Assembly: GCA_024281055.1 (NCBI GenBank)
Contig: JAMXLF010000018.1
Span: 1-64,000 of the forward strand
Source of the DNA: Geobacteraceae bacterium
GTDB lineage: Bacteria; Desulfobacterota; Desulfuromonadia; Geobacterales; Geobacteraceae
Length of the DNA: 64,000 nt
Direction: 5' to 3'
Part shown: in pieces, positions 37,428-52,581 of the stretch
How the letters are laid out: every line of letters begins with the position of its first letter
How positions within the stretch are numbered: the first letter of the stretch is position 1
Notes under the pieces: model-generated
The model's database searches: none
The model's input: only the letters and a program-made list of their open reading frames with translations
Told to the model about the DNA's origin: nothing
Made by a program: the position numbers and the translations under genes

Positions 37428-37937
37428 ATGCCCGGCACGACCAAGAGCGACCGCATTCTCGCCGAGCTGCAGCTCCTCGGGGAACGTGAAGACATCGTCG
37501 ACGTGGAAGAAGCGCGGGTCAAGATCGTTGTCTTCACCCTGGACGAGGTCCATTACGCCTTTTACGGGGAAAAGGTCCGGGAAATCCTCCCGCCGATGGA
37601 GATCTGTCCGGTTCCCGGGACCCCCCCCTTCATAGCGGGACTGGTCAACATCCGGGGGGATGTGGAGTCGGTCGTCGATATCCGCTCTTTTCTCCGGATG
37701 CCGGCAGCGGCCGACATCCAGGGGCTGATCGCGCTGGCGGCGGATGGGGATGTCCGTTCGGGCATCCTCGTTGATGCAGTCCTCGATGTGGTCGACGTTC
37801 CGGAGGGGGCGATCCGGCCACCGCTCCCCACGCTCGACGACGCGGTCAGGGAGTTCGTGGCCGGTTCCGTGGAGTACGGCGACAGGAACGTTACCCTTCT
37901 CGATATCGGCACCATCTTCGGCAAGATAGCGGCATGA
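37428..37937 (+). CDS. cheW: CheW-like coupling protein
   Basis: 169 residues. After an N-terminal extension of about 30 residues (MPGTTKSDRILAELQLLGER) comes the CheW beta-barrel: KIVVFTLDEVHYAFYGEKVR, MEICPVPGTPPFIAGLVNIR (the conserved '.iPg.P.fi.GviNlRG' block), VVDIRSFL, and a typical C-terminal region. It couples the MCP to CheA. It begins 23 bases after the TusA-like gene with GGGGGGGA upstream, so the chemosensory genes run on from the hydrogenase genes. The next cheW overlaps its end by 4 bases. Confidence 0.92.
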   Translation: MPGTTKSDRILAELQLLGEREDIVDVEEARVKIVVFTLDEVHYAFYGEKVREILPPMEICPVPGTPPFIAGLVNIRGDVESVVDIRSFLRMPAAADIQGLIALAADGDVRSGILVDAVLDVVDVPEGAIRPPLPTLDDAVREFVAGSVEYGDRNVTLLDIGTIFGKIAA

Positions 37938-38341
37938 CCGGAGCGGGTACGGACATCCGGGAAGCGGTGTTGCAACTGGTGGTGTTCAGTACAGCGGGGG
38001 TCAGCTTCGGTGCCGATGCGGAGCAGATCGCCGCGATCCGGGAGCACGTGCCGGATGCCGGGGAGGACCCCTCCCGTTTTCTGGACGAGGTGCTCCCATC
38101 CGGCGGGGCGCTTCGCTCGTCCCGGTCGGCAATCCTTGAGGTCAGGGCTGGAGACGCTCTTCACCCCGTTGCCGTCGACCGGATAGAGGAGATCGTGGAG
38201 GTCGGCATCGGCGCGATCCGGCCGCTTCCCCCCCTCGTGGCCCGGTTCGTGCGGGACAAGGGAGTGTGGGGGGTCGTCCCCCGAGGTGGAAAGATGCTCG
38301 TCCTGATCGATTTCGAGAAGGTGCCAGCGGGCGAAATGTAA
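37934..38341 (+). CDS. Second, divergent CheW-like protein
   Basis: 135 residues with a CheW-type barrel: LQLVVFSTAGVSFGADAEQI, SRSAILEVRAGDALHPVAVD, RIEEIVEVG and GVWGVVPRGGKMLVLIDFEK. It lacks the strong 'P..P.f..G..N.RG' block of its neighbour, so it is a divergent coupling or scaffold protein. The ATG overlaps the stop of the first cheW (ATGA). Confidence 0.8.
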   Translation: MTGAGTDIREAVLQLVVFSTAGVSFGADAEQIAAIREHVPDAGEDPSRFLDEVLPSGGALRSSRSAILEVRAGDALHPVAVDRIEEIVEVGIGAIRPLPPLVARFVRDKGVWGVVPRGGKMLVLIDFEKVPAGEM

Positions 38342-38344
38342 TTC

Positions 38345-38452
38345 CCCCCTCCCCTGGTGGGAGGGGGCAAGGGGGAGGGGGATAACCGAAAGAGAAATTG
38401 CCGGAACTTTCACCCCCACCCCCACCCTCCCCCATCGAGGGGGAGGGTGTTT
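38345..38452. repeat. G/C-rich inverted repeat between cheW and the MCP gene
   Basis: Left block with CCCCTCCCC, then GGGAGGGGG, then GGGGGAGGGGG (38346-38381); right block of C-runs (38411-38432) then ATCGAGGGGGAGGG. The two blocks can pair with each other and each can fold alone. The left block has G-runs that fit a G-quadruplex motif. From memory, similar elements occur between genes in many Geobacter genomes. Confidence 0.65.
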
Positions 38453-38522
38453 AGACAATTATGCAAATTACCGGAGTTACCGGAGTGAAGAGGTAACCAG
38501 GTATCCATAAAGGAGAACGACT

Positions 38523-40208
38523 GTGAGAATGTGCATCAAGAAGAAGATAATCGGTCTGTACGTGATCTCGGTACTTGTTGTCGTCTGCGCTCTTTCAGCC
38601 GTTACCATCGTCAACACCCTTTCCCGGGGAGAGGAACGGGTCCGCTCCTACCGGGATACCCTCCTCTCCGAACGGAAAGAGCATCTCAGGAATTACGTCG
38701 GTATGGCGATCAGCGCCATCGACAAGCAATCTCCGGACGAAGCGAAGAAGACCGTCAAGACGCTGAGGTACGGGAAAAACGGCTATATCTGGATCAGCGA
38801 TTTCAACTGTCTCATCCTCTCCCATATCGACCCGAAACTGGAGGGACAGAACCTGACCGACCTCAAGGATCCGAACGGCGTCTATATCCTCAGGGAGGCG
38901 GTCAAAATCTGTCAGGACAAGGGCGAAGGCTTCATCGACTACATGTGGAAATCACCGGGGAGCGAGGTGATGCAGCCGAAGCTCACCTATGCCAAGGCCA
39001 TAAAGAAATGGAACTGGGTCGTCGCCACCGGGGTATACACCGATGATATCGATGCGCAGGTCGCCAGGGAAAGGGTAAGGGTCAGGCAGGAAATCACCTC
39101 GATCATCGGCCAGTTCCTCCTCATTTCCACCGTAATCGCCGCTCTTCTCATAGGCATCACCATCTGGCTCGTCAACAGGTTCGTCAACCGCCCGATCGAA
39201 ACGATCTCCTCTTCACTCCAGAACTTCAACAACGACCTGACTCTCACCATTCCCGTCATGTCCGACGATGAAATCGGCGGCCTGGCCCACTGGCTCAACG
39301 GCCATATCGGCAACCTTCGCCAGATCATCGGCATGGTGTCCGACGTGACCGGGAGGATCAACAGCCATGCGGGAACCATCGCCGGCGCCGTCAACCAGCA
39401 GGCCGGTTTTGCCGCCCAACTCTCCAGCTCGGTGATCGAGATCTCCTCAACCATGGAGGAGTTCTCCTCCACCGCCATCCAGATAGCCAATCACAGCCAG
39501 GGGGTGGTGGAAATCGCGACCAAGACGCTCCAGGATACGAAGGAGGGCGCTACCGGCGTGGAAACCCTGACCATGAAAATGAACGAGATCAGCCGGGACA
39601 ACGAGGCGAACCTGCGCGAGATCGTGGAGCTGGGGAGGAAATCGAAGGAGATCACCAAGATCATGGAGATCATCAACAACATCGCCAACCAGACGAAACT
39701 GATCGCCTTCAACGCCGCCCTGGAGGCGGCGAGCGCCGGGGAAGCGGGGAAGCGGTTCGGGGTGGTGGCGGTGGAGATACGGCGGCTGGCGGACAGCGTG
39801 GTGGAGTCCACCGGCGAGATCGAGGCAAAGGTCACCGAGATGACGGACGCGGTGAACCGCCTGGTGCTCGCCTCGGAGAAGGGGTCCCGGGGAATCCAGG
39901 AGGGGCTCGAATATTCGGCGCAGACGATGACGATGCTGATCGACATGGTGGACGGGGCCGAGTCGACCGCCGATGCGGCGAAGCAGATCTCCCTCTCGAT
40001 CCAGCAGCAGCAGACGGCGAGCAGCCAGGTGGTGACCGCCCTGCGCGACATTCAGGAAGGAACGCGGCATTCCTCGGAGTCGATGCAGCAGATCGGCGCC
40101 ATCAGCCGCGACCTGGCCGAACTCTCCGAGAAACTGGAGCGGCTCATCCGGACGTTCAAGGTCGGAGAAAACGTCTCGACCGCTGCAACGACCTACGCCG
40201 CCTCCTGA
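38523..40208 (+). CDS. Methyl-accepting chemotaxis protein with one Cache domain
   Basis: 561 residues. A TM helix (about 8-28), a periplasmic single-Cache domain (about 40-195, with GYIWISDFNCLILSHIDPKL and KKWNWVVATGVYTDDID), a second TM (about 200-222), HAMP (about 225-275), and the cytoplasmic signalling hairpin with IINNIANQTKLIAFNAALEA at the tip. The start is GTG at 38523 with AGGAG seven bases upstream (ATG at 38529 would be 13 away). No C-terminal CheR-tethering pentapeptide. Ligand unknown; Cache domains of this type bind small carboxylates. The tip differs from the commonest 'EQTNLLALNAAIEAARAGE'. Confidence 0.92.
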   Translation: MRMCIKKKIIGLYVISVLVVVCALSAVTIVNTLSRGEERVRSYRDTLLSERKEHLRNYVGMAISAIDKQSPDEAKKTVKTLRYGKNGYIWISDFNCLILSHIDPKLEGQNLTDLKDPNGVYILREAVKICQDKGEGFIDYMWKSPGSEVMQPKLTYAKAIKKWNWVVATGVYTDDIDAQVARERVRVRQEITSIIGQFLLISTVIAALLIGITIWLVNRFVNRPIETISSSLQNFNNDLTLTIPVMSDDEIGGLAHWLNGHIGNLRQIIGMVSDVTGRINSHAGTIAGAVNQQAGFAAQLSSSVIEISSTMEEFSSTAIQIANHSQGVVEIATKTLQDTKEGATGVETLTMKMNEISRDNEANLREIVELGRKSKEITKIMEIINNIANQTKLIAFNAALEAASAGEAGKRFGVVAVEIRRLADSVVESTGEIEAKVTEMTDAVNRLVLASEKGSRGIQEGLEYSAQTMTMLIDMVDGAESTADAAKQISLSIQQQQTASSQVVTALRDIQEGTRHSSESMQQIGAISRDLAELSEKLERLIRTFKVGENVSTAATTYAAS

Positions 40209-40264
40209 GAACGAGTGGGGCAAAGGGGAATTGAGCGATAGGGGTGCGGGGAGGTGTCTTTAGC

Positions 40265-40885
40265 GTGAGCGTGACGGATGAAAATGCCAGAGGGATTGTC
40301 GCCATCGCGGCCTCGACCGGCGGTCCTTACGTGCTCGCCCGGATTTTCGAGCAACTGCCGGGAGATTATCCCGTGCCGATCGTTGTCGCCCAGCACATCT
40401 CCGACGGCTTTGCCGAGGGAATGGCGGACTGGCTGAACGACAAGACGGCCCTGGAGATCGTTACGCCGGCCCACGGGGTCCCTCTCCGTCCCGGCCGCGT
40501 GTACGTCGCTCCTCCCGAATTCAACATGAGGGTCGGTGCGCGGAAAGTAGCGGAGCTGTTCGAACGGCAACCCCATGAAATCCATCACCCTTCCTGCGAC
40601 ATCCTCCTCTGCTCGGCGGCGGAAGTGTACGGCAGGAGCTGCATCGGCGTCATCCTCACCGGCATGGGGAGCGACGGCGTCGCCGGGATCCGGAAGATAA
40701 GGGAAGCTGGGGGGACCACAATCGCCCAGGATGAGGCCTCCTCCCTGATTTTCGGCATGCCGCGGCTGGCCATCGAAAGCGGCTGCATCGACAGCGCCCT
40801 CTCCCCGGAAGGGATCGCCGCCGAGCTCGTCCGCCTCCGGCATCGCGCCGCGGGGAGAGTGGTCGCCGTCGGGGCCCGGCAATGA
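40265..40885 (+). CDS. cheB: Single-domain CheB methylesterase
   Basis: 206 residues with only the C-terminal methylesterase domain of CheB. Catalytic triad segments: AIAASTGGPYVLAR (Ser), VVAQHISDGFAEGMADWLN (His) and GVILTGMGSDGVAGIRKI (Asp). The N-terminal receiver that normally controls CheB is absent, so its activity is not tuned by phosphorylation. I place the start at GTG 40265 (GGGGAGG ten bases upstream); GTG 40244 is also possible. The end overlaps cheR by 4 bases. Confidence 0.9.
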   Translation: MSVTDENARGIVAIAASTGGPYVLARIFEQLPGDYPVPIVVAQHISDGFAEGMADWLNDKTALEIVTPAHGVPLRPGRVYVAPPEFNMRVGARKVAELFERQPHEIHHPSCDILLCSAAEVYGRSCIGVILTGMGSDGVAGIRKIREAGGTTIAQDEASSLIFGMPRLAIESGCIDSALSPEGIAAELVRLRHRAAGRVVAVGARQ

Positions 40886-42336
40886 TCGACCTCGTCCCCT
40901 TCCAGGACTTTTTCGTCGAAAAGTGCGGCCTGCTGTTCGAGAACGAGCGGCAGAAGGTCCTGACGAGCGGCCTCCGGAGCAGAATGGCTGCGCGGCGGGT
41001 TGCGGCCGCCGCGTACCTCGACCTCCTGATGCGGGACGAGGAGGAGTTCGGTCGCCTCGTGGAGCTCGTGACGGTCAACGAGACCTATTTTTTCCGCGAG
41101 CCGGCTCACCTGGAGATCCTGGCGGCTCGTCTCGTCCCCGAGCTTCTCCGCAAGGGGAGGAACGGTGAAAAGATCAGGATCGTGAGCGCCGGCTGCTCCA
41201 CGGGGGAGGAGGCCTACTCCATCGCCATCGCCCTCTGGGAGAGCTACGGTTCGCTTGCTGCCACCCTCTTCGATGTCGTCGCCGTGGACATCGACGTCGG
41301 GGCCATAACCAGGGGGTGGGCGGGGATTTACGGCAGGGGGTCGTTTCGCGGTTTCGGGGAGGAACTGCTGGCCAGGCATTTCGTTGCGACCGCCAACGGG
41401 CTCTACCGGGTAAAGGAGCACGTACGCGGCCTCGTGACGTTCGCTCCCGTGAACCTCCGCAGCGGGCTGTATCCCGGGGTGATGGAGGGGGCCGACGTCA
41501 TCTTCTACCGCAACGTCTCCATCTACTTTCCCGCACCGGTGCAGCGGGAGATCTTCGCCAACCTCGCCCGGACCCTCAGCGACGGCGGCTATCTCCTCGT
41601 CAGCGCCACGGAAACGATCCACCACGATATCGGGGTCCTCTCCCTGGTGGAGATCGACGGCAGTTTTCTCTACCGGAAAAGGCCCGGCGCGGGCAGGGAG
41701 TATCGGCTTCCCGCTCCGCTTCCTCCCGTTGGTTCGCCGTCGTTACCCCGCACCGCGCCGGTCCGCGGCAAAGAGAAACGCGATCCGGCTAACGTCGGGC
41801 CCCGGTCGCGTTTCGCCGGCACTGCCGCGCTTCCCGAGGCGAGCTTCGAGCGAGCACTGACGCTGGCGAGGGACAAGGAGTACGGCGGGGCCCTCGGGGA
41901 GCTGGAGAGGCTCCTCGCCGCGGATCCCGGCTCTGCCAGGGGGCACACGCTGAAGGGGAGCATCCTCATCAACCTGAACCGGTTCGTCGAGGCGACCGCG
42001 GCCTGCGAGGCGGCCCTGGAGGCTGACCGGTGGTGGCTGGAGGGGCACCTGCTCCTCGGCGTCATCGCCCGGTTCGCCAACCGGGAGGACGATGCGTACT
42101 GCCGCTTCAGGGAGGCGCTCTACATCGAGCCCTCTTGCTGGCTCGCCCATTTCTACCTGGCGGAGATCCACGCCGCCCGGGGAGAGGCGCAGAGCGCCCG
42201 GCGCGAGTACGAGCTGGTCATGAAGATCGTCGGGAAAGGTGAGCGTCTGGATGCGGGGCTGACCTTCTTCCCGCTTGCGTTTCAGGCGGAGCAGATGGTG
42301 AACCTCTGCCGGCATAATCTGGGGAAGCTTGCATAG
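40882..42336 (+). CDS. cheR: CheR methyltransferase with C-terminal TPR
   Basis: 484 residues. CheR N-domain plus SAM domain (about 1-270): TVNETYFFREPAHLEIL, VSAGCSTGEEAYSIAIALWE (SAM motif), and VIFYRNVSIYF, in which the usual CRNVLIYF is altered. A linker (275-330) is followed by TPR-like repeats (about 335-470: LAADPGSARGHTLKGSI, HLLLGVIARFANREDDA). CheR-TPR proteins belong to alternative chemosensory systems (such as type IV pilus or Frz-like). Overlaps cheB (ATGA). Confidence 0.93.
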   Translation: MIDLVPFQDFFVEKCGLLFENERQKVLTSGLRSRMAARRVAAAAYLDLLMRDEEEFGRLVELVTVNETYFFREPAHLEILAARLVPELLRKGRNGEKIRIVSAGCSTGEEAYSIAIALWESYGSLAATLFDVVAVDIDVGAITRGWAGIYGRGSFRGFGEELLARHFVATANGLYRVKEHVRGLVTFAPVNLRSGLYPGVMEGADVIFYRNVSIYFPAPVQREIFANLARTLSDGGYLLVSATETIHHDIGVLSLVEIDGSFLYRKRPGAGREYRLPAPLPPVGSPSLPRTAPVRGKEKRDPANVGPRSRFAGTAALPEASFERALTLARDKEYGGALGELERLLAADPGSARGHTLKGSILINLNRFVEATAACEAALEADRWWLEGHLLLGVIARFANREDDAYCRFREALYIEPSCWLAHFYLAEIHAARGEAQSARREYELVMKIVGKGERLDAGLTFFPLAFQAEQMVNLCRHNLGKLA

Positions 42337-42425
42337 TTAAGCTCCCAGGGGTAGGCGTTCAGGACGGCTAAGGGGGCGTTGGCAGGAAGTACTATTGAAA
42401 AGTCACCACGTGCTGTGGCCATTAG

Positions 42426-42731
42426 CTATGCCGCATTTCTGAAAGGCTTGACTTCGCGTTCGATCCGCTCAGCCAGCCCGATCTCGGCGGTTTCCAGGTC
42501 GTACTGGGCCTGAAGGTTCATCCAGCTTTGCGCATCGGTGCCGAAGAAACGGGCGAAACGCAGAGCGGTGTCGGCAGTGATGGCGCGTTTGCCGGCACAG
42601 ATTTCATCGATGCGGCGCTGGGGGACGCCGATCTCCTTGGCGAGCCGGTAGCGGGTCAGGCCCATCGGTTTCAGGAAGTCTTCGAGAAGGATTTCGCCGG
42701 GATGTACCGGCGGGAGGTCACGCTTGATCAT
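42426..42731 (-). CDS. higA: HigA-type antitoxin (XRE family)
   Basis: 101 residues with PPVHPGEILLEDFLKPMGLT, the family start of HigA/VapI, then the HTH KEIGVPQRRIDEICAGKRA, and ALRFARFFGTDAQSWMNLQ. It binds and neutralises the HigB toxin and represses the operon. It lies 13 bases downstream of higB on the same strand. The start at 42731 (ATGATCAAGCG) is the conserved one. Confidence 0.93.
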   Translation of the reverse strand: MIKRDLPPVHPGEILLEDFLKPMGLTRYRLAKEIGVPQRRIDEICAGKRAITADTALRFARFFGTDAQSWMNLQAQYDLETAEIGLAERIEREVKPFRNAA

Positions 42732-42744
42732 GGTTGCATCTCCT

Positions 42745-43026
42745 TCAATGGTAGTCGACGATCTCGACGTCATGGGCCGTACCGTTCTCCCAACGGAAGC
42801 ATATCCGCCACTGCTCATTGATGCGAATGCTCCATTGGCCGGCCCGATTGCCGGTAAGCTGTTCGAGCCGGTTGCCGGGCGGGACGCGAAGAAAATCGAG
42901 GGTGGCCGCGGCGTTGATCTGCATGAGCTTGCGTTGTGCAACCCGTTGGACATCCTGCGGAAGTTTGGCCGAAAAGCGGCCGTGGAAAAGCTTCTCGGTC
43001 TCTTTGCACAAGAACGATACGATCAT
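42745..43026 (-). CDS. higB: HigB/RelE-type toxin
   Basis: 93 residues of the RelE-fold HigB family: IVSFLCKETEKLFHGRF at the start, then FLRVPPGNRLEQLTG, QWSIRINEQWRICFRWENG and a C-terminal VEIVDYH, the motif with catalytic and tail residues. HigB cuts mRNA on the ribosome. Both genes of this higBA pair are complete. They are minus-strand genes in a 26-kb run of plus-strand genes, between cheR and a broken copy of cheA. Confidence 0.93.
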   Translation of the reverse strand: MIVSFLCKETEKLFHGRFSAKLPQDVQRVAQRKLMQINAAATLDFLRVPPGNRLEQLTGNRAGQWSIRINEQWRICFRWENGTAHDVEIVDYH

Positions 43027-43032
43027 GGTTTA

Positions 43033-43061
43033 ATAGTACCGCTATGCGGTAGTATTGTCAA
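43033..43061 (-). promoter_or_regulatory. higBA promoter with overlapping operator
   Basis: On the minus strand TTGACA (43061-43056) and TACTAT (43038-43033) are 17 bases apart, a near-consensus sigma70 promoter. The spacer holds the palindrome ACCGC-TAT-GCGGT, extending to 10-base arms with one mismatch. HigA-type antitoxins repress such overlapping sites. Confidence 0.8.
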
Positions 43062-43091
43062 GCGATAGTAACGGCATGGAGAAGGTACGCG

Positions 43092-43244
43092 ATGGCGTTT
43101 GATCAGACTAAATTCCAGGTTCGCTTTCTCGAAGAGGCGCGGGAGCATAACAGCGGGCTCCTGGAGAGCGAACGGAACAGCGGTGATGCGGAGACAATGA
43201 TCGCCCTGATCCGTGCCGCCCATTCCCACAAGGATCAACCATGA
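43092..43244 (+). pseudogene. Truncated duplicate of the start of cheA (Hpt domain)
   Basis: A 50-codon frame with its own ribosome site (GAGAAGG) reads MAFDQTKF, RFLEEAREH, SGLLESERNSGDAETM and RAAHSHKDQP. It matches the first ~52 residues of the cheA at 48658 (MAFDQTKFLARFLEEAREHC, NALFRAAHTIKG) with four codons lost in the middle and a divergent end; even the bases before the ATG match. The candidate phospho-His is kept (His44), but the rest of the Hpt fold is gone. The TGA overlaps the ATG of the following sensor gene, so translation of the fragment may feed that gene. I read it as a recombination scar. Confidence 0.85.
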
Positions 43245-45823
43245 TCGACGTCAACAGCCTGCGCTCCATTGGCATTTTTAAAGAGTTCTCCCAGGAAGCG
43301 CTTGCCGGTATCATTCCCTGCCTGACGGAAAAAACCGTTCCGGCCGATACCACCATTATCTACCGTGGTGATCCTGGCTCCTCCATGTTCCTGATTCTGA
43401 ACGGCACGGTTGCGGTCACCCTCATCAACGATGAGGGGATCGAGTATACCCTTACCACACAGGGCAAGGGGGATGTCTTCGGCGAGATGGCTCTCATGAC
43501 CGGCGAGCCGCGATCCGCCAATGTAAAGGCTGTGACCGACGTTCACCTGGCCGAACTGAGCCAGGAGGCGTTTCTCGATCTTGTATCCGCTTTCCCCGTC
43601 CTCAATGAGAGCCTTCTTCGACTGGTGGCGCAACGGCGGGCCCGGAGCACGGTGCGGCAGCAATTCGCCCGGCTTGAGCGGGAAGAAGTGATCGCCAACC
43701 TGTTTGCCCAGCAGGCCCCCGAGATCGACCATTTCATCGGCACCACCAGATGGACGGCGGAAACCAACGCCGCCATCACGAGGCTCGCCGGGGCCGACGG
43801 CAACGTCCTCATCCTCGGCGAAAGGGGAACCGGCAAGGATCTCGCAGCACGGCTCATCCATATGCACGGGAAGGCGGAGAACCGGCCGCTCTATCATCTG
43901 GATTGCGCAAATCCGCCCCCTATCCAGCGCGATGGAGAAAGAGGAAAAGAAGGCGAGAAGGATGCCCTGCACCTGGAGATCGCCCAGGAGTCCGCACTGT
44001 TCGGTCACGGCGCGGGAGCCGGAACCTATGCCATGGGGATCAGGCGAGGGTATCTCGAACTGGCCGACCGGGGATGCGTGATCCTGGAGAATATCGAGGC
44101 CCTCTCCCCCCGCGTGCAGCGGCTGCTTGTCCAGTATCACCGGGAGGGTTCCTTTCTGCCGAAGGGAGGACGGCAGCAGGTGTCCAGCCGGTGCCGGCTG
44201 ATTGCCACCGCATCACGGCCGCTCGTGGAATTGACGGAAGGGGGGAGACTCGATCCCGAGCTCCTGGAGGTGATCAGTGCGCAGACCCTGCACCTCAAAC
44301 CGTTGCGGGAACGGAAAAAAGACATACCGGTCATTGCCGAGCATTTTCTCGACCAGTACAACCGGAAATTCGGCAAAGGGGTGTCAGGCTTCTCCAAAGA
44401 GGCATCGAACCTCCTGATCGACCACGGCTGGCCGCTCAATGTGGATGAGTTGCGCCAGGTGCTCGAACGCGCGGTTGCGATCGCCGAAGAGAGCACCATC
44501 ACCGAGAGGGAAATATTCCTGAATCTTCCCTCCTTCTCCGCCACCGGCAAATTCAATCTGCTGAGGATCCCCTCCGTGCGGGATCTGCTGGGCCATCCCA
44601 TGTTTCCCGCCGGGCTGCAGTACGTTACCATCCCGGTCATCGTCATCCTGATAGCCTATACCCTGGCCGGTCCCCGGGACAACAACCTCGCAAACCTCGT
44701 GGTCTGGGCCGTCTGGTGGCCGATCCTCATCGTTTCGATTTTTTTCACCGGCCGGAGCTGGTGCGCCTATTGCCCGATGCCTTCTCTCGGGGGGTATCTC
44801 AGCCGGTTCCGGAAAAAATTTCTCCCCGTGCCGGGGGTGGTGCTGAAGTACGGTATCTGGCTGGGTATCGTCGGTTTCGTCATCATCTATCAGGCCGAGC
44901 ACCTTTTCCGGATGTTCGAGGATGCGCGCGCCACCGGATTTCTCCTCCTCACCATCCTCTCGGGCGCAACGGTCACCACGCTCCTCTTCGGCAGGCGCTC
45001 CTGGTGCAAGCATGTCTGTCCGCTGGGCAGGATGGTGGCCCAGTTCGCAACCATCTCCCTGCTGGAACTCGGCAGCAACAGCAACGTCTGTTCGAGCCAG
45101 TGTCGCACCCATGACTGCGTGAAGGCGGGTAATTGCCCCATGGGGCTTCACCCTTCCGCCGCGTCGGTCAGCAAAGACTGCATCTTCTGTCTTTCCTGCG
45201 TGAAGAGCTGCGAGCATCGCTCTGTGCGCATCGATGCCCGGTTCCCGTGGCTGGAGCTCCTCCGCAAAGAGAAGTGGGAATTCAGCGGCGCCCTGTTCGC
45301 CGTTTTTCTGACTGCCTGCGTGCTCGCGATCAAACTTCCGGAATGGGGGCCTTTCAGGAGATTCATCCTGCACGAACCGGAACCGACCCGCTCGCTGCTG
45401 GCCGGGTTCAGGGAAGGGTTGCCCGTTCTGTCCGGTTTCGTCGCGTTGCCGCTCCTTGTTTCCGGTTTTCCCGCCAGGAAGGACTGGAGCCGTCATTTCA
45501 GCCTTTCCGGCTATGTCTACCTGTTTGTCGCGTTTTCCGGCTGCTTCGACATTTACCTGCACGAGTTCGTCTACAAAGGCCACAACCTGCTCCCGTGGGC
45601 GGTGCACCTTTTCAGTTTCGGCTCCCTGGAGTTGCCCGATTCGCTGACGCCCAACCTCGGAACGATGAAAGCCCTGTTCCCTATCATTACCCTTGCGGGG
45701 GGGATTCCTTCGCTTCTGATGCTGAGGACGCTCGCGGACAAATACGCGTTCCCCCCGTATCTGTACCGGGGCCATCAGGTAATCCTTTTTGTGTGCATGC
45801 TGCTGTTTCTGCTTATTCTGTAG
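43241..45823 (+). CDS. cNMP-binding / AAA+ (sigma54-like) / membrane polyferredoxin fusion
   Basis: 860 residues in three parts. (1) A cyclic-nucleotide-binding barrel (about 1-130): FKEFSQEAL, GDPGSSMFLILNGTVAVTLI, and the phosphate cassette GDVFGEMALMTGEPRSANV. (2) An AAA+ domain of the sigma54-activator type (about 160-420): GERGTGKDLAARLIH is intact, but GAFTGA is replaced by GAGAGTYAMG and Walker B DEIG by ENIE; no HTH follows. (3) A membrane part (about 465-860) with six or more hydrophobic helices and NapH/CcoG-like cysteine motifs: SWCAYCPMP, SWCKHVCPLG, CSSQCRTHDCVKAGNCP and CIFCLSCVKSC. I infer a membrane redox or electron-transfer receptor controlled by a cyclic nucleotide. Its AAA+ probably cannot activate sigma54. 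Confidence 0.9.
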   Translation: MIDVNSLRSIGIFKEFSQEALAGIIPCLTEKTVPADTTIIYRGDPGSSMFLILNGTVAVTLINDEGIEYTLTTQGKGDVFGEMALMTGEPRSANVKAVTDVHLAELSQEAFLDLVSAFPVLNESLLRLVAQRRARSTVRQQFARLEREEVIANLFAQQAPEIDHFIGTTRWTAETNAAITRLAGADGNVLILGERGTGKDLAARLIHMHGKAENRPLYHLDCANPPPIQRDGERGKEGEKDALHLEIAQESALFGHGAGAGTYAMGIRRGYLELADRGCVILENIEALSPRVQRLLVQYHREGSFLPKGGRQQVSSRCRLIATASRPLVELTEGGRLDPELLEVISAQTLHLKPLRERKKDIPVIAEHFLDQYNRKFGKGVSGFSKEASNLLIDHGWPLNVDELRQVLERAVAIAEESTITEREIFLNLPSFSATGKFNLLRIPSVRDLLGHPMFPAGLQYVTIPVIVILIAYTLAGPRDNNLANLVVWAVWWPILIVSIFFTGRSWCAYCPMPSLGGYLSRFRKKFLPVPGVVLKYGIWLGIVGFVIIYQAEHLFRMFEDARATGFLLLTILSGATVTTLLFGRRSWCKHVCPLGRMVAQFATISLLELGSNSNVCSSQCRTHDCVKAGNCPMGLHPSAASVSKDCIFCLSCVKSCEHRSVRIDARFPWLELLRKEKWEFSGALFAVFLTACVLAIKLPEWGPFRRFILHEPEPTRSLLAGFREGLPVLSGFVALPLLVSGFPARKDWSRHFSLSGYVYLFVAFSGCFDIYLHEFVYKGHNLLPWAVHLFSFGSLELPDSLTPNLGTMKALFPIITLAGGIPSLLMLRTLADKYAFPPYLYRGHQVILFVCMLLFLLIL

Positions 45824-45859
45824 CTTCAGCCCGTTCGACACGAACTTTGGGGTAGAAAC

Positions 45860-46624
45860 GTGATGAAAATAAAGTTTATCGGTGTAGGTTCACAGTTTTC
45901 GGGTCTGGACCAGTATCAGTCCAATATGGTGATTACGGCACCGGGAGGAAGGAAGCTCCTCATCGACTGCGGCAGCGATGCCCGGTTCTCCCTGGCCGAG
46001 AGCGGAATGTGCCCGGCCGACCTGGACGCCGTCTATGTGTCGCACCTGCATGGCGACCACATCGGTGGACTCGAATGGCTGGCGCTCAGTACCTACTTCT
46101 CGCCGCACCCGCGGCGGCTCACCCTCTTCAGTGAGGAGCGGACGATGGCATCGCTGTGGGAACATTCGCTGCGCGGCGGATTGCACTGCATCCGGGCGAA
46201 GGAGATGGAGCTGGAAGATTACTTTCTCCGCCACCCCGTTGCCGCCGGGGGGACGTTCACGTGGCAGGAGATCCGCTTTACCCTCTGCCGGATGCCGCAC
46301 ATCGCCAACAGCGCCGGTTGCCACGACAGCCACGGATTGCTCCTGGAAGCGAAGGATGCCCGGATATTCATAACGACCGACACGCAGTTCGTGCCGGAGT
46401 TCATCGAAAAAACAGCCGAGTGTGCAGATCTCATTTTTCATGACTGTGAGACATCGCCCGTCAAGACCATGGTGCATGCCCACTACGAGCAGTTGCGCAC
46501 GCTCCCTGCAGCGGTCAAAAGCAAGATCTGGCTGTACCATTACCAGGAAGGCCATCCGTACCACCCCGCAGAGGACGGTTTCAGGGGATTTGTCGTCAAG
46601 GGACAGGAATTCCTGGTGCCTTGA
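45860..46624 (+). CDS. Metallo-beta-lactamase-fold hydrolase
   Basis: 254 residues. Family signature VSHLHGDHIGGLEW (HxHxDH, about residues 61-70), then RMPHIANSAG, ITTDTQFVPEF, FHDCETSPVKTMVHAHYEQL, typical of the RNase Z/phosphodiesterase-like branch. GTG at 45860 or ATG at 45863 may be used. It lies 36 bases after the sensor gene and may be a cyclic-dinucleotide or cAMP phosphodiesterase; RNase activity is equally possible (inference). Confidence 0.85.
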   Translation: MMKIKFIGVGSQFSGLDQYQSNMVITAPGGRKLLIDCGSDARFSLAESGMCPADLDAVYVSHLHGDHIGGLEWLALSTYFSPHPRRLTLFSEERTMASLWEHSLRGGLHCIRAKEMELEDYFLRHPVAAGGTFTWQEIRFTLCRMPHIANSAGCHDSHGLLLEAKDARIFITTDTQFVPEFIEKTAECADLIFHDCETSPVKTMVHAHYEQLRTLPAAVKSKIWLYHYQEGHPYHPAEDGFRGFVVKGQEFLVP

Positions 46625-46649
46625 TTTCGATCAACCGGAGAACAGCAAA

Positions 46650-47075
46650 TTGAAACGTACCTGGAAAGAAATCCAGTCAGCCCCCGGAGAGGTGCAACTC
46701 CTTGCGCTGGCCATCTTCCTGATCGGGATGCATAGCCTCATCCTCGGGACCTTTATTTATTTTTTCACCGACTTGTTTTACCGGCTGTTTTTTAGGGCAA
46801 ACGTCGAGAATTTCTTTTTTGTCAAGCAATCGGGACTCTTCCTCTTCTGCATCGGCCTTTTTTACCTCGCGTCTCTTGCCAACCTGAAACGGAGCAAATA
46901 TCAAGTGGTCGCCATAATTCTCACCAAAACCCTGGCTGTGCTGTTTCTCCTTGCCAATGCCCGGCTTGCCGTCCGGCCGGGGATTCTCCTTGTTGCCGCA
47001 TCACTGGACGGCATGATGGCCGCTCTCCTGATCGCATGCCTGCGAAATGCACGGCCGGCATTCGAGTCGAGGTAA
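46650..47075 (+). CDS. Four-helix membrane protein of unknown function
   Basis: 141 residues from a TTG at 46650 (GGAG about 9 bases upstream). Four hydrophobic stretches (about 16-40, 57-78, 85-103, 108-130). No family recognised. It sits between the metallohydrolase and the cyclase gene; the next start is 4 bases after its stop, so it is part of the operon. Confidence 0.65.
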   Translation: MKRTWKEIQSAPGEVQLLALAIFLIGMHSLILGTFIYFFTDLFYRLFFRANVENFFFVKQSGLFLFCIGLFYLASLANLKRSKYQVVAIILTKTLAVLFLLANARLAVRPGILLVAASLDGMMAALLIACLRNARPAFESR

Positions 47076-47079
47076 CAGC

Positions 47080-48570
47080 ATGGAATCCGATACAATAAGG
47101 CTTTTGATAGTCGACGACGACGGTTTGGTGAGGGATATGATCTCATTCATCCTGGAATCCTATGACTATATCGTGGATACCGCCTGTAACGGACAGGAGG
47201 CCTACGAAAAGTATGAGGCGGACCAGGGGTTCAGCCTGATCATTTCAGACATGGAGATGCCGGTCATGTCCGGGCTGGAGATGACCAAGCTGCTTCGGGC
47301 GGAAGGGTTCGATGTCCCGGTTTTGATCCTGACGGGGGTTGTGGATATCTCCGTAGCGATAGAAGCCATGAAGAACGGGGCCTGCGACTACATTCTGAAG
47401 AACGAGGATGTCGAAAGCAGCATAGTCGTGGCAGTGGCCAACGTGCTTGAAAGGCAGCGCCTGAAGGAACGGAACAGGACACTGGAGCAGATGGTGGCGG
47501 AGCGGACGAAAGAGCTGAATGCATCGCTGCTCAAGGTGCAGGCTGCCAACCGGCTCATCCGCCAGACCTTTGGCCGCTACCTCTCCGACGACGTGGTGGC
47601 TGACATCCTCTATTCGCCCGAAGGAGCCGCTCTCGGGGGTGAAAGCCGGCTGATCACGGTCATGATGACCGATCTTCGCGGATTCACCTCCATTGCCGAG
47701 AGGCTGCCGGCCGGTGATGTTCTTGCCATCATCAACATCTACCTCGAAAAGATGACCGACGTCATCATGAAGTACAAGGGCACCATCATCGAGTTCATCG
47801 GAGACGCGATTCTCGCTGTTTTCGGCGCCCCCGTGTTCCGTGAGGACGACGCGAAGCGGGCGCTTGCCTGTGCCATCGAAATGCAGCAGGCCATGGCCGA
47901 AGTAAACGCGCGCTGCCGGGAGCTCGGCTATCCCGAAATCGAGCAGGGGATTGGCATCAACACCGGCGAGTCGGTTGTCGGCAACATCGGCTCCGACAAA
48001 AGAGCCAAGTACGGGATCGTGGGGAGGAACGTGAACCTCACCGGCCGCATCGAATCGTATACCATCGGCGGACAGATTCTGATCTCGGAAAGCACGGCCG
48101 AAGCGTGCGGTCACACCCTTACCTTCCGTGACAAGCTGAAGGTGATGCCCAAAGGCGTCAACAAGCCGATTACCCTTTTCGACGTGACCGGAATCGGGGC
48201 CGGTTTCAACGTATCTCTTCCGCACAGGGAGGTGGACGAACTCGTTGAACTGCCAAAGGAACTGGCGGTCGGATTCTATATCCTTGAAGGGAAGCATGCC
48301 ACGGGCACGGTTTATGAGGGCATCATCAGGAAACTGGGGGTAAAAGAGGCCCTTATTCAGTCGGAAATACCGGTCGCTCGTCTGGCAAACCTGAAGCTCA
48401 GTCTGGCCGGGAGCGACGGCAATGAACTGGCAACGGATCTCTACGCCAAGGTCATCGAATCTCCTTCGTGTTCTCCGTCGTCGTTCAAGGTTCATTTCAC
48501 GTCTCTGCCGCCGGAAGCGAAAGTATTTCTGGAAAATGCCCTGAATAACCGTATCGATTCACCGGCATGA
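47080..48570 (+). CDS. Response-regulator receiver fused to class III nucleotide cyclase
   Basis: 496 residues. Receiver (about 1-125, phospho-acceptor Asp57 in LIISDMEMP), a short coiled coil (RLKERNRTLEQMVAERTKEL), then a class III cyclase (about 185-345: VMMTDLRGFTSIAERL first metal Asp; IIEFIGDAILAVFGAP second metal Asp; GINTGESVVGN; NVNLTGRIES). The C-terminal ~140 residues are PilZ-like in look but not certain. The base-recognition Lys expected before FIGD (DKFIGD) is Glu here (IEFIGD) and the partner residue is Gly (KYGIVG), so cGMP or another product is possible. The receiver resembles that of the PP2C gene at 52615. The next-but-two gene upstream has a cNMP domain, a natural receptor. 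Confidence 0.9.
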   Translation: MESDTIRLLIVDDDGLVRDMISFILESYDYIVDTACNGQEAYEKYEADQGFSLIISDMEMPVMSGLEMTKLLRAEGFDVPVLILTGVVDISVAIEAMKNGACDYILKNEDVESSIVVAVANVLERQRLKERNRTLEQMVAERTKELNASLLKVQAANRLIRQTFGRYLSDDVVADILYSPEGAALGGESRLITVMMTDLRGFTSIAERLPAGDVLAIINIYLEKMTDVIMKYKGTIIEFIGDAILAVFGAPVFREDDAKRALACAIEMQQAMAEVNARCRELGYPEIEQGIGINTGESVVGNIGSDKRAKYGIVGRNVNLTGRIESYTIGGQILISESTAEACGHTLTFRDKLKVMPKGVNKPITLFDVTGIGAGFNVSLPHREVDELVELPKELAVGFYILEGKHATGTVYEGIIRKLGVKEALIQSEIPVARLANLKLSLAGSDGNELATDLYAKVIESPSCSPSSFKVHFTSLPPEAKVFLENALNNRIDSPA

Positions 48571-48657
48571 TGTGGAGAAAGCGCAAAACGGAAGAGCAGG
48601 TGTGCAATGTCGCGGCGTCTTGGGAGAGGCGGGATTTTGATATGAAGAAGGTACCCG

Positions 48658-50889
48658 ATGGCATTTGATCAGACCAAATTCCTGGCCCGGTTCCTCGAAG
48701 AGGCGCGGGAGCACTGCGCCCGGCTGAACAGCGGGCTCCTGGAGATCGAGCGGAACAGCGGCGATGCGGAGACGATGAACGCCCTGTTCCGCGCCGCCCA
48801 TACCATCAAGGGTTCTTCGCGGATGATGAAGCTCCTGGCGGTGACGGAGGTGGCGCACAAACTGGAGGATGTCCTCGATGCCCTGCGGGGCGGGAAAATC
48901 CCCTTTTCCCGCGCCTTGTCCGACACCCTGTTCGGTGGGGTCGACGCCATCACCCGGATGATCGAGGGGATCGCCGCCGGCGACCGGATCGACGAACCAC
49001 CGGCGGCCGTCTGCGAGGAGCTGGAAAAGGCGGCCCGCGGTGAGCTCTCCCCCGGGGAAACCCGGGTTTCCCCTCCGGTTACAGAGGCGCCAGCCCCGGC
49101 CTCTCCTGCACCCTCGGCAGAGGCAGGTTCACAGCCTCCTGTCCAGACTCCTCAACCGGCGGCGGAGGCCGGCGGCAGGCGCGCGGCTGCCGAAACCATC
49201 CGCGTTGATGCGGCCAAGCTGGATGCCCTGATCAAGCTCATGGGGGAGATCGTCTCCGGGCAGAACCGCTGGCGCCGGACCGCAGGGCACATACGGGAGG
49301 CGGAGCAGCTTGCCGCGAAGAGCGCCGAAGCGCTGGCCTGTCTCGTCCGGGACGAAGGTGCGGGGGGGCGGGGCGAAGGGGTGCTGCGGGGGGTGCGGGA
49401 TCTGCAGGCGAAGCTGCACCGCCTGGGAGTGGGCGCACGGGAGGATTTCCCGGCCCAGGAACAGCTGATCGGCCAGCTGCAGGAGATCTCCCTCAAGATG
49501 CGGATGCTGCCGCTGGCGACGGTCTTCGACACCTTTCCGCGCACCGTGCGCGACACGGCACGGGGCCTCGGGAAAGAGATCGATTTTGTCGTCGAGGGGG
49601 GGGAAACCGAGCTCGACAAGAAGATCATCGAGAAGATCGGCGACCCTCTCCTCCACATGATCCGCAACGCCATCGACCATGGCATCGAGGAGCCCGCGGA
49701 GCGACTGGCCGCCGGCAAGAGGGAGCGGGGGACGCTCCGGCTCGCCGCCCGCTACGAAGGGGGAAGCGTCACCGTGACCCTCCAGGACGACGGCCGGGGG
49801 ATTTCCGCGGGCAGGGTCCGCGAGAAGGCCCTCCAGAAAAGGCTCGTTACCGATGACGCCCTGGCCAGGATGTCCGAGACCGAGGTCATCGATTTCATCT
49901 TCCACCCAGGGTTCAGCACCAGCGCGATCATCACCGACCTCTCCGGCCGGGGAGTGGGGATGGACGTGGCGCGGAAGGTCATTGTCGACGAGTTGAAGGG
50001 GGCCATCCAGGTGGAGACGAAAGAGGGGCAGGGGTGCGCCTTCTCTATCAGACTCCCCCTCACCCTGGCCATGTTCCGCCTCCTTCTCGTCACCGCGGGC
50101 TCACGAGTCTTTGCTCTGCCGGCGACGGCGGTCTGCGAGATCGTGACCGTTCCCCGCGCCGAGCTCATCGAGGTGGTGAACCGGTCGGCGGTCAGGCTGC
50201 GGGAGCAGATCATCCCCGTGGAGAAACTGGCCCGGGTCCTTGGCATCGCCGACGGAGGGGAGCGGGAGCCGGACCAGGCGCTCCTCATCATTGTCGCCAC
50301 CGGGAACGAAAAGCTGGGGCTCGTGGTCGATGCTCTCCTCACCGAGGAGGATATGGTCGTAAAACCGCTCCCACCACATCTGGCGAACGTGCGGCTGGTG
50401 TCGGGGGTGGCGGTGGGGAGCGGCAACGGGATCATCAACGTCCTCCGGGTACCGGCGCTCCTGCGGGGGGCGCGGGAACTCAAAGAGGGGGTTGGGGTGA
50501 AACCCGCCGCCGTCGAGCGGCGGGAGATCACCATTCTCGTGGTCGACGACTCCGTCAACACCCGGGAAATCGAGAAAAATATCCTCGAAGCCTACGGCTA
50601 TGCCGTGGTCATGGCGGAGGACGGCATGGAGGCGTACGAAAAGGCGATGGAGCGCCGCTACGATGCCGTGATCACCGATGTGGAGATGCCGCGTCTCGAC
50701 GGGTTCTCTCTGACGGAGCGCCTGCGCCGTGACGAGAACTATCGCGACACCCCGATCATCATCGTCACCTCCCGGGAGAAGGAAGAGGACAAGCGGCGGG
50801 GGATTGCGGTCGGCGCCAATGCCTACATCGTGAAGGGGTCGTTCGAGCAATCGAACCTCCTGGATACGGTGCAGAATCTGGTCGGATGA
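48658..50889 (+). CDS. cheA: CheA-type hybrid histidine kinase with C-terminal receiver
   Basis: 743 residues. Hpt (P1) with phospho-His48 in FRAAHTIKGSS; an Ala/Pro-rich linker; dimerisation and P3 helices (LMGEIVSGQNRW); HATPase (about 320-465: IRNAIDHGIEEPAERL, DDGRGIS, FSTSAIITDLSGRGVGMDV); CheW-like P5 domain; and a receiver (about 620-743, VVDDSVNTREIEKN, VITDVEMPRLDG). As the only CheA in the window it must serve the MCP and CheW genes 10 kb upstream. No P2/CheY-binding domain is clear and no free CheY gene is present. GAAGAAGG precedes the ATG. Confidence 0.94.
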   Translation: MAFDQTKFLARFLEEAREHCARLNSGLLEIERNSGDAETMNALFRAAHTIKGSSRMMKLLAVTEVAHKLEDVLDALRGGKIPFSRALSDTLFGGVDAITRMIEGIAAGDRIDEPPAAVCEELEKAARGELSPGETRVSPPVTEAPAPASPAPSAEAGSQPPVQTPQPAAEAGGRRAAAETIRVDAAKLDALIKLMGEIVSGQNRWRRTAGHIREAEQLAAKSAEALACLVRDEGAGGRGEGVLRGVRDLQAKLHRLGVGAREDFPAQEQLIGQLQEISLKMRMLPLATVFDTFPRTVRDTARGLGKEIDFVVEGGETELDKKIIEKIGDPLLHMIRNAIDHGIEEPAERLAAGKRERGTLRLAARYEGGSVTVTLQDDGRGISAGRVREKALQKRLVTDDALARMSETEVIDFIFHPGFSTSAIITDLSGRGVGMDVARKVIVDELKGAIQVETKEGQGCAFSIRLPLTLAMFRLLLVTAGSRVFALPATAVCEIVTVPRAELIEVVNRSAVRLREQIIPVEKLARVLGIADGGEREPDQALLIIVATGNEKLGLVVDALLTEEDMVVKPLPPHLANVRLVSGVAVGSGNGIINVLRVPALLRGARELKEGVGVKPAAVERREITILVVDDSVNTREIEKNILEAYGYAVVMAEDGMEAYEKAMERRYDAVITDVEMPRLDGFSLTERLRRDENYRDTPIIIVTSREKEEDKRRGIAVGANAYIVKGSFEQSNLLDTVQNLVG

Positions 50890-50937
50890 CGGCGGTGGTC
50901 TGCGGCTGGCGAGAAGCTGATTTCGAGATCGGACGAT

Positions 50938-52581
50938 ATGGGAAATCCCGAGGATAAGCTGGAGAAGTTGCGGGAAGCGTTCGCCCGGCAGTTGCCGGAG
51001 CGGGTCGCGACCATCGTTGCCGCATGGGAAGGTCTGCCCGGAGAAGGGTGGTGCCCGGAACGACTGGGGGACCTTGTGCGCCTTCTCCACAACCTCGCCG
51101 GCACTGCGGCAACGTTCGGTCTCGCCGATGTCGCCGGCGCGGCCAGAAAGGCCGAAAAAGAGGCGCGGCGGATCGTGGAGTCGTGTCTCCCGCCGACGCA
51201 GGAACAGTGCGCCGAAATCCGGACCTTGTTGAGCGCCCTGCCGGCAGCCGGAACGAGCCGGCGCGCCCCAGCTCTTGCACCGGAGGAAAGAGATGGTATC
51301 CTCACGAAGCCCCATTGTGCGGAACAGAGGAAACGGGTCTATCTGGCGGATGACGATCCCGTCCTTTCAAAAAGTCTGGCGTCGCAGATCGGCTGTTTCG
51401 GCTACGATGTCAGAACCTTTACGCGGCTGAGCGAACTTGAGGGCGCGGTGCTGACGGCGCCCCCGGCAGCGATCATCATGGCCACGACCTTCCAGAAGGC
51501 GGAGATGGCGGGCGCCGAGGCCGTCGCCGCCATCAGGGACGAAGGAGGGGCGCCCGTCCCCGTTATCTTCATCTCCCGGCGGACCGACCTCGACTGCCGC
51601 CTCAAAGCCGTCAAGGCGGGAGGATACGCCTACTTCGTGAAACCGGTGCCGATAAGCGACCTCGTCGACAAGCTGGATGCGCTCACCTCCGACAGGCGCG
51701 CCGACCCTTACCGGATCCTGATCGTCGACGACGATCCGGAGCTCGCCGCATTCCACGCCCACCTCCTCGAGCGGCACGGGATGGTGACCGAAACCGTTAC
51801 CGACCCGTTCGGGATCATGAGGCCGCTGGTCGAATTCAACCCGGACCTGATCCTCATGGACATGTACATGCCCGACTGCACCGGCAACGAGCTGGCCCGG
51901 GTGATCCGCCAGATGGAGGCGTACGTCAGTATTCCGATCGTCTTCCTGTCCGCGGAGACGAGGATCGACAAACAGCTTGTCGCCATGAGCATGGGAGGCG
52001 ACGACTTCCTCACCAAGCCGATCGAGCCGGGGCACCTCATCTCGTCCGTCACCTCCAGAGCCGAGCGAATGCGCATTCTCCGGACGTTCATGGAACGGGA
52101 CAGCCTCACCGGCCTCCTCAACCACACCAAGACCAAGGAGGAGCTGGACCTGGCCGCGCTGCGCGCCCGGCGGGAAGGAAAGAGCCTGGCGTTCGCCATG
52201 ATCGATATCGACCATTTCAAAGCGGTCAATGATACCCATGGGCACCCGGTGGGGGATCAGGTGATCGTCATCCTTGCCCGCCTGCTGCAGCAGCGCCTGC
52301 GCAGGACCGACATCATCGGCCGTTACGGGGGCGAGGAATTTGCGGTCATACTCCCGGACACCGACCTGGCTGACTCCCTGGGGATAATGGACGAGATACG
52401 GCAGGTGTTCGAGCGGATCCGCCACCAGGGGAACGATGGGGATTTCTCCGTTACCTTCAGCTGCGGCGTAGCCGGCCTCGCTTCCTGCCGGAGCGGGGCG
52501 GAGCTCAACAGCGCGGCGGACAGGGCGCTCTACGAGGCGAAGCGGAGCGGGAGAAACCGGGTGGCGGCGTTCCGGGGATGA
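50938..52581 (+). CDS. Hpt-REC-REC-GGDEF diguanylate cyclase
   Basis: 547 residues. N-terminal Hpt-like domain (His51 in RLLHNLAGTAATFG); a degenerate receiver (about 130-245) whose phosphate-accepting Asp is replaced (IIMATTF); a normal receiver (about 255-375, LILMDMYMPDC); and a GGDEF domain (about 385-545) with RYGGEEFAVILPDTD, the active GGEEF form. The inhibitory c-di-GMP site RxxD is present as RRTD five residues before GGEEF. It makes c-di-GMP in the cytoplasm, switched by phosphotransfer. Neighbour of CheA and of the MshEN-ATPases that may bind its product. Confidence 0.93.
   Translation: MGNPEDKLEKLREAFARQLPERVATIVAAWEGLPGEGWCPERLGDLVRLLHNLAGTAATFGLADVAGAARKAEKEARRIVESCLPPTQEQCAEIRTLLSALPAAGTSRRAPALAPEERDGILTKPHCAEQRKRVYLADDDPVLSKSLASQIGCFGYDVRTFTRLSELEGAVLTAPPAAIIMATTFQKAEMAGAEAVAAIRDEGGAPVPVIFISRRTDLDCRLKAVKAGGYAYFVKPVPISDLVDKLDALTSDRRADPYRILIVDDDPELAAFHAHLLERHGMVTETVTDPFGIMRPLVEFNPDLILMDMYMPDCTGNELARVIRQMEAYVSIPIVFLSAETRIDKQLVAMSMGGDDFLTKPIEPGHLISSVTSRAERMRILRTFMERDSLTGLLNHTKTKEELDLAALRARREGKSLAFAMIDIDHFKAVNDTHGHPVGDQVIVILARLLQQRLRRTDIIGRYGGEEFAVILPDTDLADSLGIMDEIRQVFERIRHQGNDGDFSVTFSCGVAGLASCRSGAELNSAADRALYEAKRSGRNRVAAFRG

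Follow-up and report, generated by a model that had tools for sequence, protein, structure and literature searches.

A CRP-like domain, a degenerate sigma54-type AAA+ domain and a membrane Fe-S module in one chain, encoded beside a predicted cyclase and phosphodiesterase

A four-gene cassette within a chemosensory cluster

The stretch of DNA analysed here, 64,000 nucleotides in length and referred to below as the window, carries four neighbouring genes on its forward strand (Table 1). The first, X, is an open reading frame that starts with ATG, contains no internal stop and encodes 860 amino acids, in which a CRP-like cyclic nucleotide (cNMP) domain, a sigma54-type AAA+ domain and a membrane part with Fe-S motifs follow one another. 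A metallo-beta-lactamase (MBL)-fold gene begins 36 bp downstream of X and is followed by the genes for a small membrane protein and for a nucleotide cyclase with a receiver domain. Two direct repeats of about 158 bp, 88% identical to one another (alignment score 220, against a maximum of 34 for shuffled sequences), bracket exactly these four genes, one being the intact start of cheA and the other a decayed copy of it. It looks as if the four genes had entered the chemosensory cluster together.

The cluster itself (37934-52581) encodes a Cache-MCP, CheB, a CheR-TPR protein, CheA with a receiver and an Hpt-receiver-GGDEF protein; through the last of these, a cyclic di-GMP output lies near the predicted cGMP module. 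On the minus strand (42426-43026), in the interval from cheR to the cassette, there are a HigA-like HTH antitoxin (Pfam HTH_3) and an ORF that is HigB-like in sequence appearance only.

Table 1. Features of the cassette and of protein X, with positions in the window.
Feature	Position	Strand	Basis
Left direct repeat, decayed copy of the cheA 5' end	43076..43233	+	Comparison with right repeat
X, 860-aa cNMP - pseudo-AAA+ - membrane Fe-S protein	43241..45823	+	ORF, Pfam, AlphaFold
CRP-like cyclic-nucleotide domain and dimer helix, aa 1-146	43241..43678	+	Pfam aa 31-116; structure match
Sigma54-type AAA+ core and lid, aa 160-427; of the catalytic and sigma54-contact motifs, Walker A alone present	43718..44521	+	NtrC1 fit; motif counts
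Walker A GERGTGKD, aa 193-200	43817..43840	+	Sequence
GAGTYA, hexapeptide aligned to GAFTGA, aa 259-264	44015..44032	+	NtrC1 alignment
Degenerate Walker B CVILENI, aa 279-285	44075..44095	+	Alignment, motif counts
Membrane half, nine predicted helices, aa 457-859; 12 conserved Cys, predicted cytoplasmic	44609..45817	+	Models, charge bias, Cys counts
C508xxC511, Fer4_5 motif 1	44762..44773	+	Alignment
C589xxxC593, Fer4_5 motif 2	45005..45019	+	Pfam, alignment
Ferredoxin-like loop, C617 C621 C626 C632 and C647 C650 C653 C657	45089..45211	+	Alignment
Apyc1-like MBL-fold cyclic mononucleotide phosphodiesterase, predicted eraser, HLHGDH	45860..46624	+	PF23023; Apyc1 7u2s
Small membrane protein	46650..47075	+	No Pfam match; start codon uncertain (TTG)
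Receiver - class III nucleotide cyclase, predicted writer, guanylate type	47080..48570	+	PF00072, PF00211; Cya2
Right direct repeat, intact start of cheA (cheA 48658-50889)	48642..48811	+	Comparison with left repeat

X is a single gene with many relatives

Pfam matches to cNMP_binding (2.8e-22, aa 31-116), Sigma54_activat (8.9e-25), AAA_lid_14 (6.4e-20, aa 356-427) and Fer4_5 (1.3e-12) all fall on the one open frame, 29 residues separate the AAA+ lid from the first membrane helix, and an AlphaFold model built from 39 family members has a mean pLDDT of 85.4. These matches bear out an earlier note on this DNA, which had described the three parts as joined in one 860-residue protein, and every motif that it named is present (Walker A as GERGTGKD, the altered Walker B as VILENI, and SWCAYCPMP, SWCKHVCPLG and CIFCLSCVKSC). 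The domain search that it proposed finds the parts united in single chains across the family: the AAA lid and Fer4_5 occur in all 39 members, Sigma54_activat in 38 and cNMP in 35, and Pfam detects an HTH neither in X nor in any of the 39, in agreement with the absence claimed before. A frameshift or mis-join, which had been considered around 44500-44600, can be dismissed, since 19 homologues from the same taxonomic family are full-length single chains; as such homologues occur in dozens of genomes, X is a genuine single gene.

Counting the window's own, 20 genomes of the sampled taxonomic family encode full-length X in one chain, and it is present in 19 of the 19 sampled genomes of genus g7; carriers by name include Geomonas oryzae, G. 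edaphica, G. propionica and Citrifermentans bremense. The membrane half was found in 37 of 141 genomes at the level of the order (with few exceptions as open frames of some 780-980 residues), in 56 of 277 at that of the class and in 64 of 395 in the phylum sample, the last of which also contained shorter relatives, free-standing and about 450-530 residues long. The X family is thus widespread in Geobacterales-type genomes and extends to other groups of the phylum. Several of the free-standing relatives of the Fe-S half at loci L121-L129 (about 450-480 aa) adjoin a tryptophan-synthase-alpha-like ORF. Although free-standing membrane halves do exist, no fused member tested has GAFTGA, and the possibility that the homologues are always separate genes with an intact GAFTGA, raised in the same note, fails.

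The front domain

In the model, residues 1-146 of X superpose on GlxR/CRP-cAMP structures (Z 20.8-21.4), and G81, E82, R91 and S92 make up the Gly-Glu and Arg-Ser pocket of the CRP type, which suggests that this domain binds a cyclic mononucleotide. The pocket Arg is retained in 25 of 39 members, some distant members being without it. The pocket of X equals the cAMP/cGMP-binding residues of Clr, a protein that binds both nucleotides (PMC10127613), so X alone does not tell cGMP from cAMP.

Distant members carry a different front domain, either FHA plus cNMP (L105) or GAF (L113, L117), and retain the AAA+ and Fe-S parts; a shorter relative in genome G151, encoded beside the small membrane protein, has a weak PAS match. 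Because the front sensor is the part exchanged among members, the input to X would lie at its front, and in bacterial enhancer-binding proteins (bEBPs), too, the front domain governs the AAA+ core (PMC7175178). A signal passing from sensor to AAA+ scaffold to Fe-S membrane output would be the natural reading of this order.

A maintained pseudo-AAA+ domain

The modelled residues 160-430 fit NtrC1 (1ny5) with a Z of 29.2 and an rmsd of 1.8 over 248 residues, and the AAA+ region also superposes on other sigma54 activators (Z up to 29.2). In the alignment to NtrC1, the GAFTGA position of X reads GAGTYA, within GHGAGAGTYAMG, and Walker B reads VILENI where LFLDEI is expected. Among the 38 alignable members not one has the Walker B Asp-Glu, the catalytic Glu, the first arginine finger or GAFTGA; the sensor II Arg is left in two and the Walker A Gly-Lys in 20, the Geomonas group having a P-loop that contains Trp (GTWK) and LRN at Walker B. 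The earlier account of motif degeneration was correct on GAFTGA and Walker B but understated, as the arginine fingers, the sensor II Arg and the switch Asn are replaced as well. Four pairs give dN/dS values of 0.18-0.22 for the AAA+ segment, close to those of the rest of X, and this level of about 0.2 indicates that the domain is under constraint despite its lost motor parts. Judged by its sequence, the AAA+ part of X is a maintained pseudo-ATPase. In a tree that is unrooted and has several long branches, the AAA+ domains of X split from those of 12 intact bEBPs at 100/100 support.

The membrane Fe-S half

Fer4_5 scores above its Pfam cut-off in X, and the Fer4_5 motifs are accompanied by two ferredoxin-like cysteine sets. 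The three Fe-S motifs quoted before are present but form an incomplete list, since this half has 12 conserved cysteines, all of them found in 39 of 39 members. If the front domains are taken as cytoplasmic, all 12 are predicted to face the cytoplasm, and the charge bias agrees (26 Lys and Arg on the cytoplasmic side against 6 on the periplasmic).

X misses the cut-offs of the NapH family models (TIGR02163, 33.2 bits against 213; NF007013, 28.8 against 234). Among solved structures, Foldseek found nothing resembling the membrane half with an E below 0.001 and VIA-align reached a best Z of 5.9, which does not prove a new fold, and a sequence search of solved structures with this half returned ferredoxin-like stretches only. 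The view that the membrane part of NapH oxidises quinol is discussed in PMC5928378. The NapH models match X far below their cut-offs, and it is only by analogy that its membrane half would probably move electrons between the quinone pool and a partner. The flanks of about 30 family loci contain no fixed respiratory enzyme beside the X gene.

A predicted writer and eraser beside X

The MBL protein scores 91.9 bits with PF23023 (Apyc1; cut-off 50), has the HxHxDH motif, and finds its best solved relatives among Apyc1 proteins (PDB 7u2s, 4.5e-26). Apyc1-like enzymes of bacteria are broad in specificity and cleave a variety of cyclic mononucleotides; the paper concerned suggests that they may also have a part in other cNMP signalling (PMC9117128). 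The cyclase is best matched by Cya2 of Synechocystis (6fht, a Cya2 fusion, 5.9e-74; 2w01, 4.9e-65), a guanylyl cyclase that the single change E488K converts to an adenylate cyclase (PMC5995499). In the window and in genomes G028 and G088 the cyclases read GTIIEFIGD and KYG, that is, Glu...Gly at the Cya2 substrate positions, and these residues make cGMP the most likely signal of the window's subclade. The adenylate-type Lys...Thr is found in the cyclases of G225 (CHASE2, by the MBL gene), L042 (by an X fragment) and G345 (by a distant X). As those of L042 and G345 are of this type, cGMP is not the signal of the whole family, and for some members it is probably cAMP. The second-messenger link proposed in the earlier note is thereby strengthened by a writer and an eraser that it had not included.

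The subclade of X that has a writer and an eraser is small: X and the MBL gene are linked at five loci in four genomes (the window, G028, G088 and two loci in G145), with the cyclase also linked in the first three. In G028 the cyclase, MBL and X genes stand in a row, and a hybrid histidine kinase gene lies directly upstream of the receiver-cyclase. All four genes are together in G088, where identity to the window's proteins is 67% for X, 62% for the small membrane protein, 48% for MBL and 65% for the cyclase, which carries a Cache sensor whereas the cyclases of the window and G028 carry a receiver. In the MAG Ww292 (G145), X, the small membrane protein and MBL occur at two loci on short contigs. 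An MBL orthologue is present in five of 271 genomes of the class and is beside X in four of the five; the small membrane protein is present in six of 271 and adjoins an X-family gene or its cassette in the window, G088, G145 and G151. The co-occurrence of these two genes has a Fisher p of 3e-7, uncorrected for the relatedness of the genomes. Most X genes (those of Geomonas and Citrifermentans) have neither a cyclase nor an MBL gene within about 8 kb, and no operon is conserved for the whole X family in about 30 loci with flanks of up to 8 kb; only the window's subclade has one.

Several other arrangements were seen. At L157:9556-12612 (G225) an MBL orthologue and a CHASE2 adenylate-type cyclase form an eraser-writer pair alone, with no X nearby. 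L042:4315-6572 holds an N-terminally truncated X that adjoins a transposase-like ORF and ATP synthase genes, followed by a CHASE2 cyclase, and at L150:5337-9718 (G345) a distant X of 31% identity has a divergent adenylate-type sensor-cyclase about 0.6 kb away. The G151 relative (L170:1038-3833), a PAS (weak)-AAA+-Fe-S protein without GAFTGA, stands directly before the small membrane protein and is preceded by two ORFs that are STAS-like in appearance. In G112 the small membrane protein sits beside a cNMP-CBS-DUF294 protein.

A proposed mechanism and its alternatives

The computed architecture of X, its lost and conserved motifs, its linked genes and their families, and the substrate residues of the cyclases prompt a model, to which I give about an even chance, of a writer-eraser-reader module that probably uses cGMP, with a membrane Fe-S protein, governed through a dead AAA+ scaffold, as its reader. 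From these features I infer the ligand, the assembly switch, the electron transfer and the direction of signalling. The cyclase would make a cyclic mononucleotide, most likely cGMP, which the Apyc1-like phosphodiesterase would remove and the CRP-like N-domain of X would bind. Binding would alter how the sigma54-type AAA+ core assembles or packs; the core would no longer hydrolyse ATP or touch sigma54 and would serve as a scaffold, with ATP perhaps a structural ligand in the window's subclade. This change would in turn control the NapH/NosR-like membrane part, whose Fe-S clusters would face the cytoplasm and which would probably link the quinone pool by electron transfer to a partner in the cytoplasm or membrane. 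The earlier suggestion that a sigma54 fold has become a coupling module is supported in part: a non-transcriptional reuse between a second-messenger sensor and a membrane Fe-S protein fits the family-wide loss of motor residues, the purifying selection, the invariant cysteines and the exchanged front sensor; electron carriage and the relay of a signal through the AAA+ part remain inferred.

What alternatives would account for the same features? The direction could be reversed: the Fe-S part would then sense the redox state of the quinones, and the cNMP and AAA+ parts would pass this on, for instance by serving as a dock for the cyclase or for a transcription factor. The Fe-S core is indeed the most conserved part of X, the gene is located in a chemosensory cluster, and proteins of the NosR type were initially regarded as regulators (PMC5928378). 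However, the chain is without an output domain (HTH, kinase or cyclase), the exchange of the front sensor places the input there, and in bEBPs control runs from the front domain to the AAA+ core (PMC7175178), which makes the reversed direction unlikely. It is more doubtful still that X of the window's subclade works as an ATP-driven remodeller, independent of sigma54, in the assembly or loading of a redox partner: the window protein and those most closely related to it have an intact Walker A, but the catalytic Glu is replaced and the first arginine finger absent in 38 of 38 members, all but two lack the sensor II Arg, and the large Geomonas subclade has the Trp in its P-loop. The Fer4_5 motif family also covers maturation and reductase proteins of the CcoG/NosR kind, and the Fe-S half might be such a factor, handling a metal or cofactor under cyclic nucleotide control, and no respiratory carrier. 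The lack of a fixed respiratory enzyme beside the gene would suit this, but the neighbourhood has no maturation partner either and the weak sequence resemblance points to NapH, so that I consider it similarly improbable.

Two further readings have far less in their favour. A Pycsar-like anti-phage module would comprise a class III cyclase and a membrane effector, with the Apyc1-like enzyme as a brake; PADLOC matches the cyclase to PycC (2.6e-18) and the N-domain of X to PycTIR (5.3e-13), and the HigBA-like pair adjoins the cassette. Yet the PADLOC matches reflect shared domains only, the cyclase combines a receiver domain with the purine-type Glu/Gly pair known from Cya2, and the presence of X throughout the sampled g7 genomes is unlike that of a patchy defence gene, all of which makes a role in defence very improbable. 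That X is a true membrane-bound sigma54 activator can hardly be credited. The fold of its AAA+ core and lid matches these activators closely, but GAFTGA and the Walker B Asp-Glu are absent from all 38 members and there is no HTH, a C-terminal domain found in most, not all, bEBPs.

Relation to known systems

If the module works as proposed, through control of the Fe-S reader via the AAA+ scaffold, cyclic nucleotides would act directly on membrane electron transfer, without transcription, in metal-reducing bacteria and their relatives, and the fold of a transcription motor would have been converted into a signalling scaffold. Bacterial cGMP signalling is poorly understood, and a set of writer, eraser and reader as compact as this one lends itself to testing. 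Members of the X family are also easily mistaken for transcriptional regulators owing to their AAA+ part. I searched family libraries and the open-access literature and found no description of the X architecture, in line with the earlier statement that no characterised protein is known to have it; the effector type appears to be undescribed, its parts being known. X may even represent a new class of effector, in which cGMP acts through a dead sigma54-type AAA+ assembly to gate a membrane Fe-S electron carrier directly and a dedicated writer and eraser are encoded alongside; I put this forward tentatively.

Functionally, the nearest precedent is the pair XC_0250/XC_0249 of Xanthomonas campestris, a guanylate cyclase with a linked cNMP-GGDEF effector (PMC3770947). 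There, too, a cGMP-making class III cyclase is encoded beside an effector with a cNMP domain, but the output is a GGDEF diguanylate cyclase, whereas the X module has a pseudo-AAA+ and a membrane Fe-S part and a phosphodiesterase linked as well. With bEBPs (NtrC1, PspF, ZraR) X shares the AAA+ and lid fold (Z up to 29) and a front sensor domain; it differs from them in lacking GAFTGA, the Walker B Asp-Glu, the arginine fingers and an HTH, and in having a membrane Fe-S half. This half resembles NapH, NosR and RdhC in its membrane module, CX2-3CP motifs and ferredoxin-like cysteines, but it scores far below the family cut-offs, has five extra C-terminal helices and no FMN domain, and is fused to a sensor and an AAA+ domain in front. 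CRP, GlxR and Clr have the same cNMP fold, long dimer helix and pocket residues, together with a DNA-binding domain that X is without. The MBL protein next to X resembles Apyc1 and class II phosphodiesterases in its HxHxDH motif and in a score above the Pfam cut-off, although, unlike Apyc1, it is chromosomal and cyclase-linked, not phage-carried. Finally, the X-linked cyclases have the same substrate residues as Cya2 of Synechocystis, with a receiver or Cache sensor in place of CHASE2.
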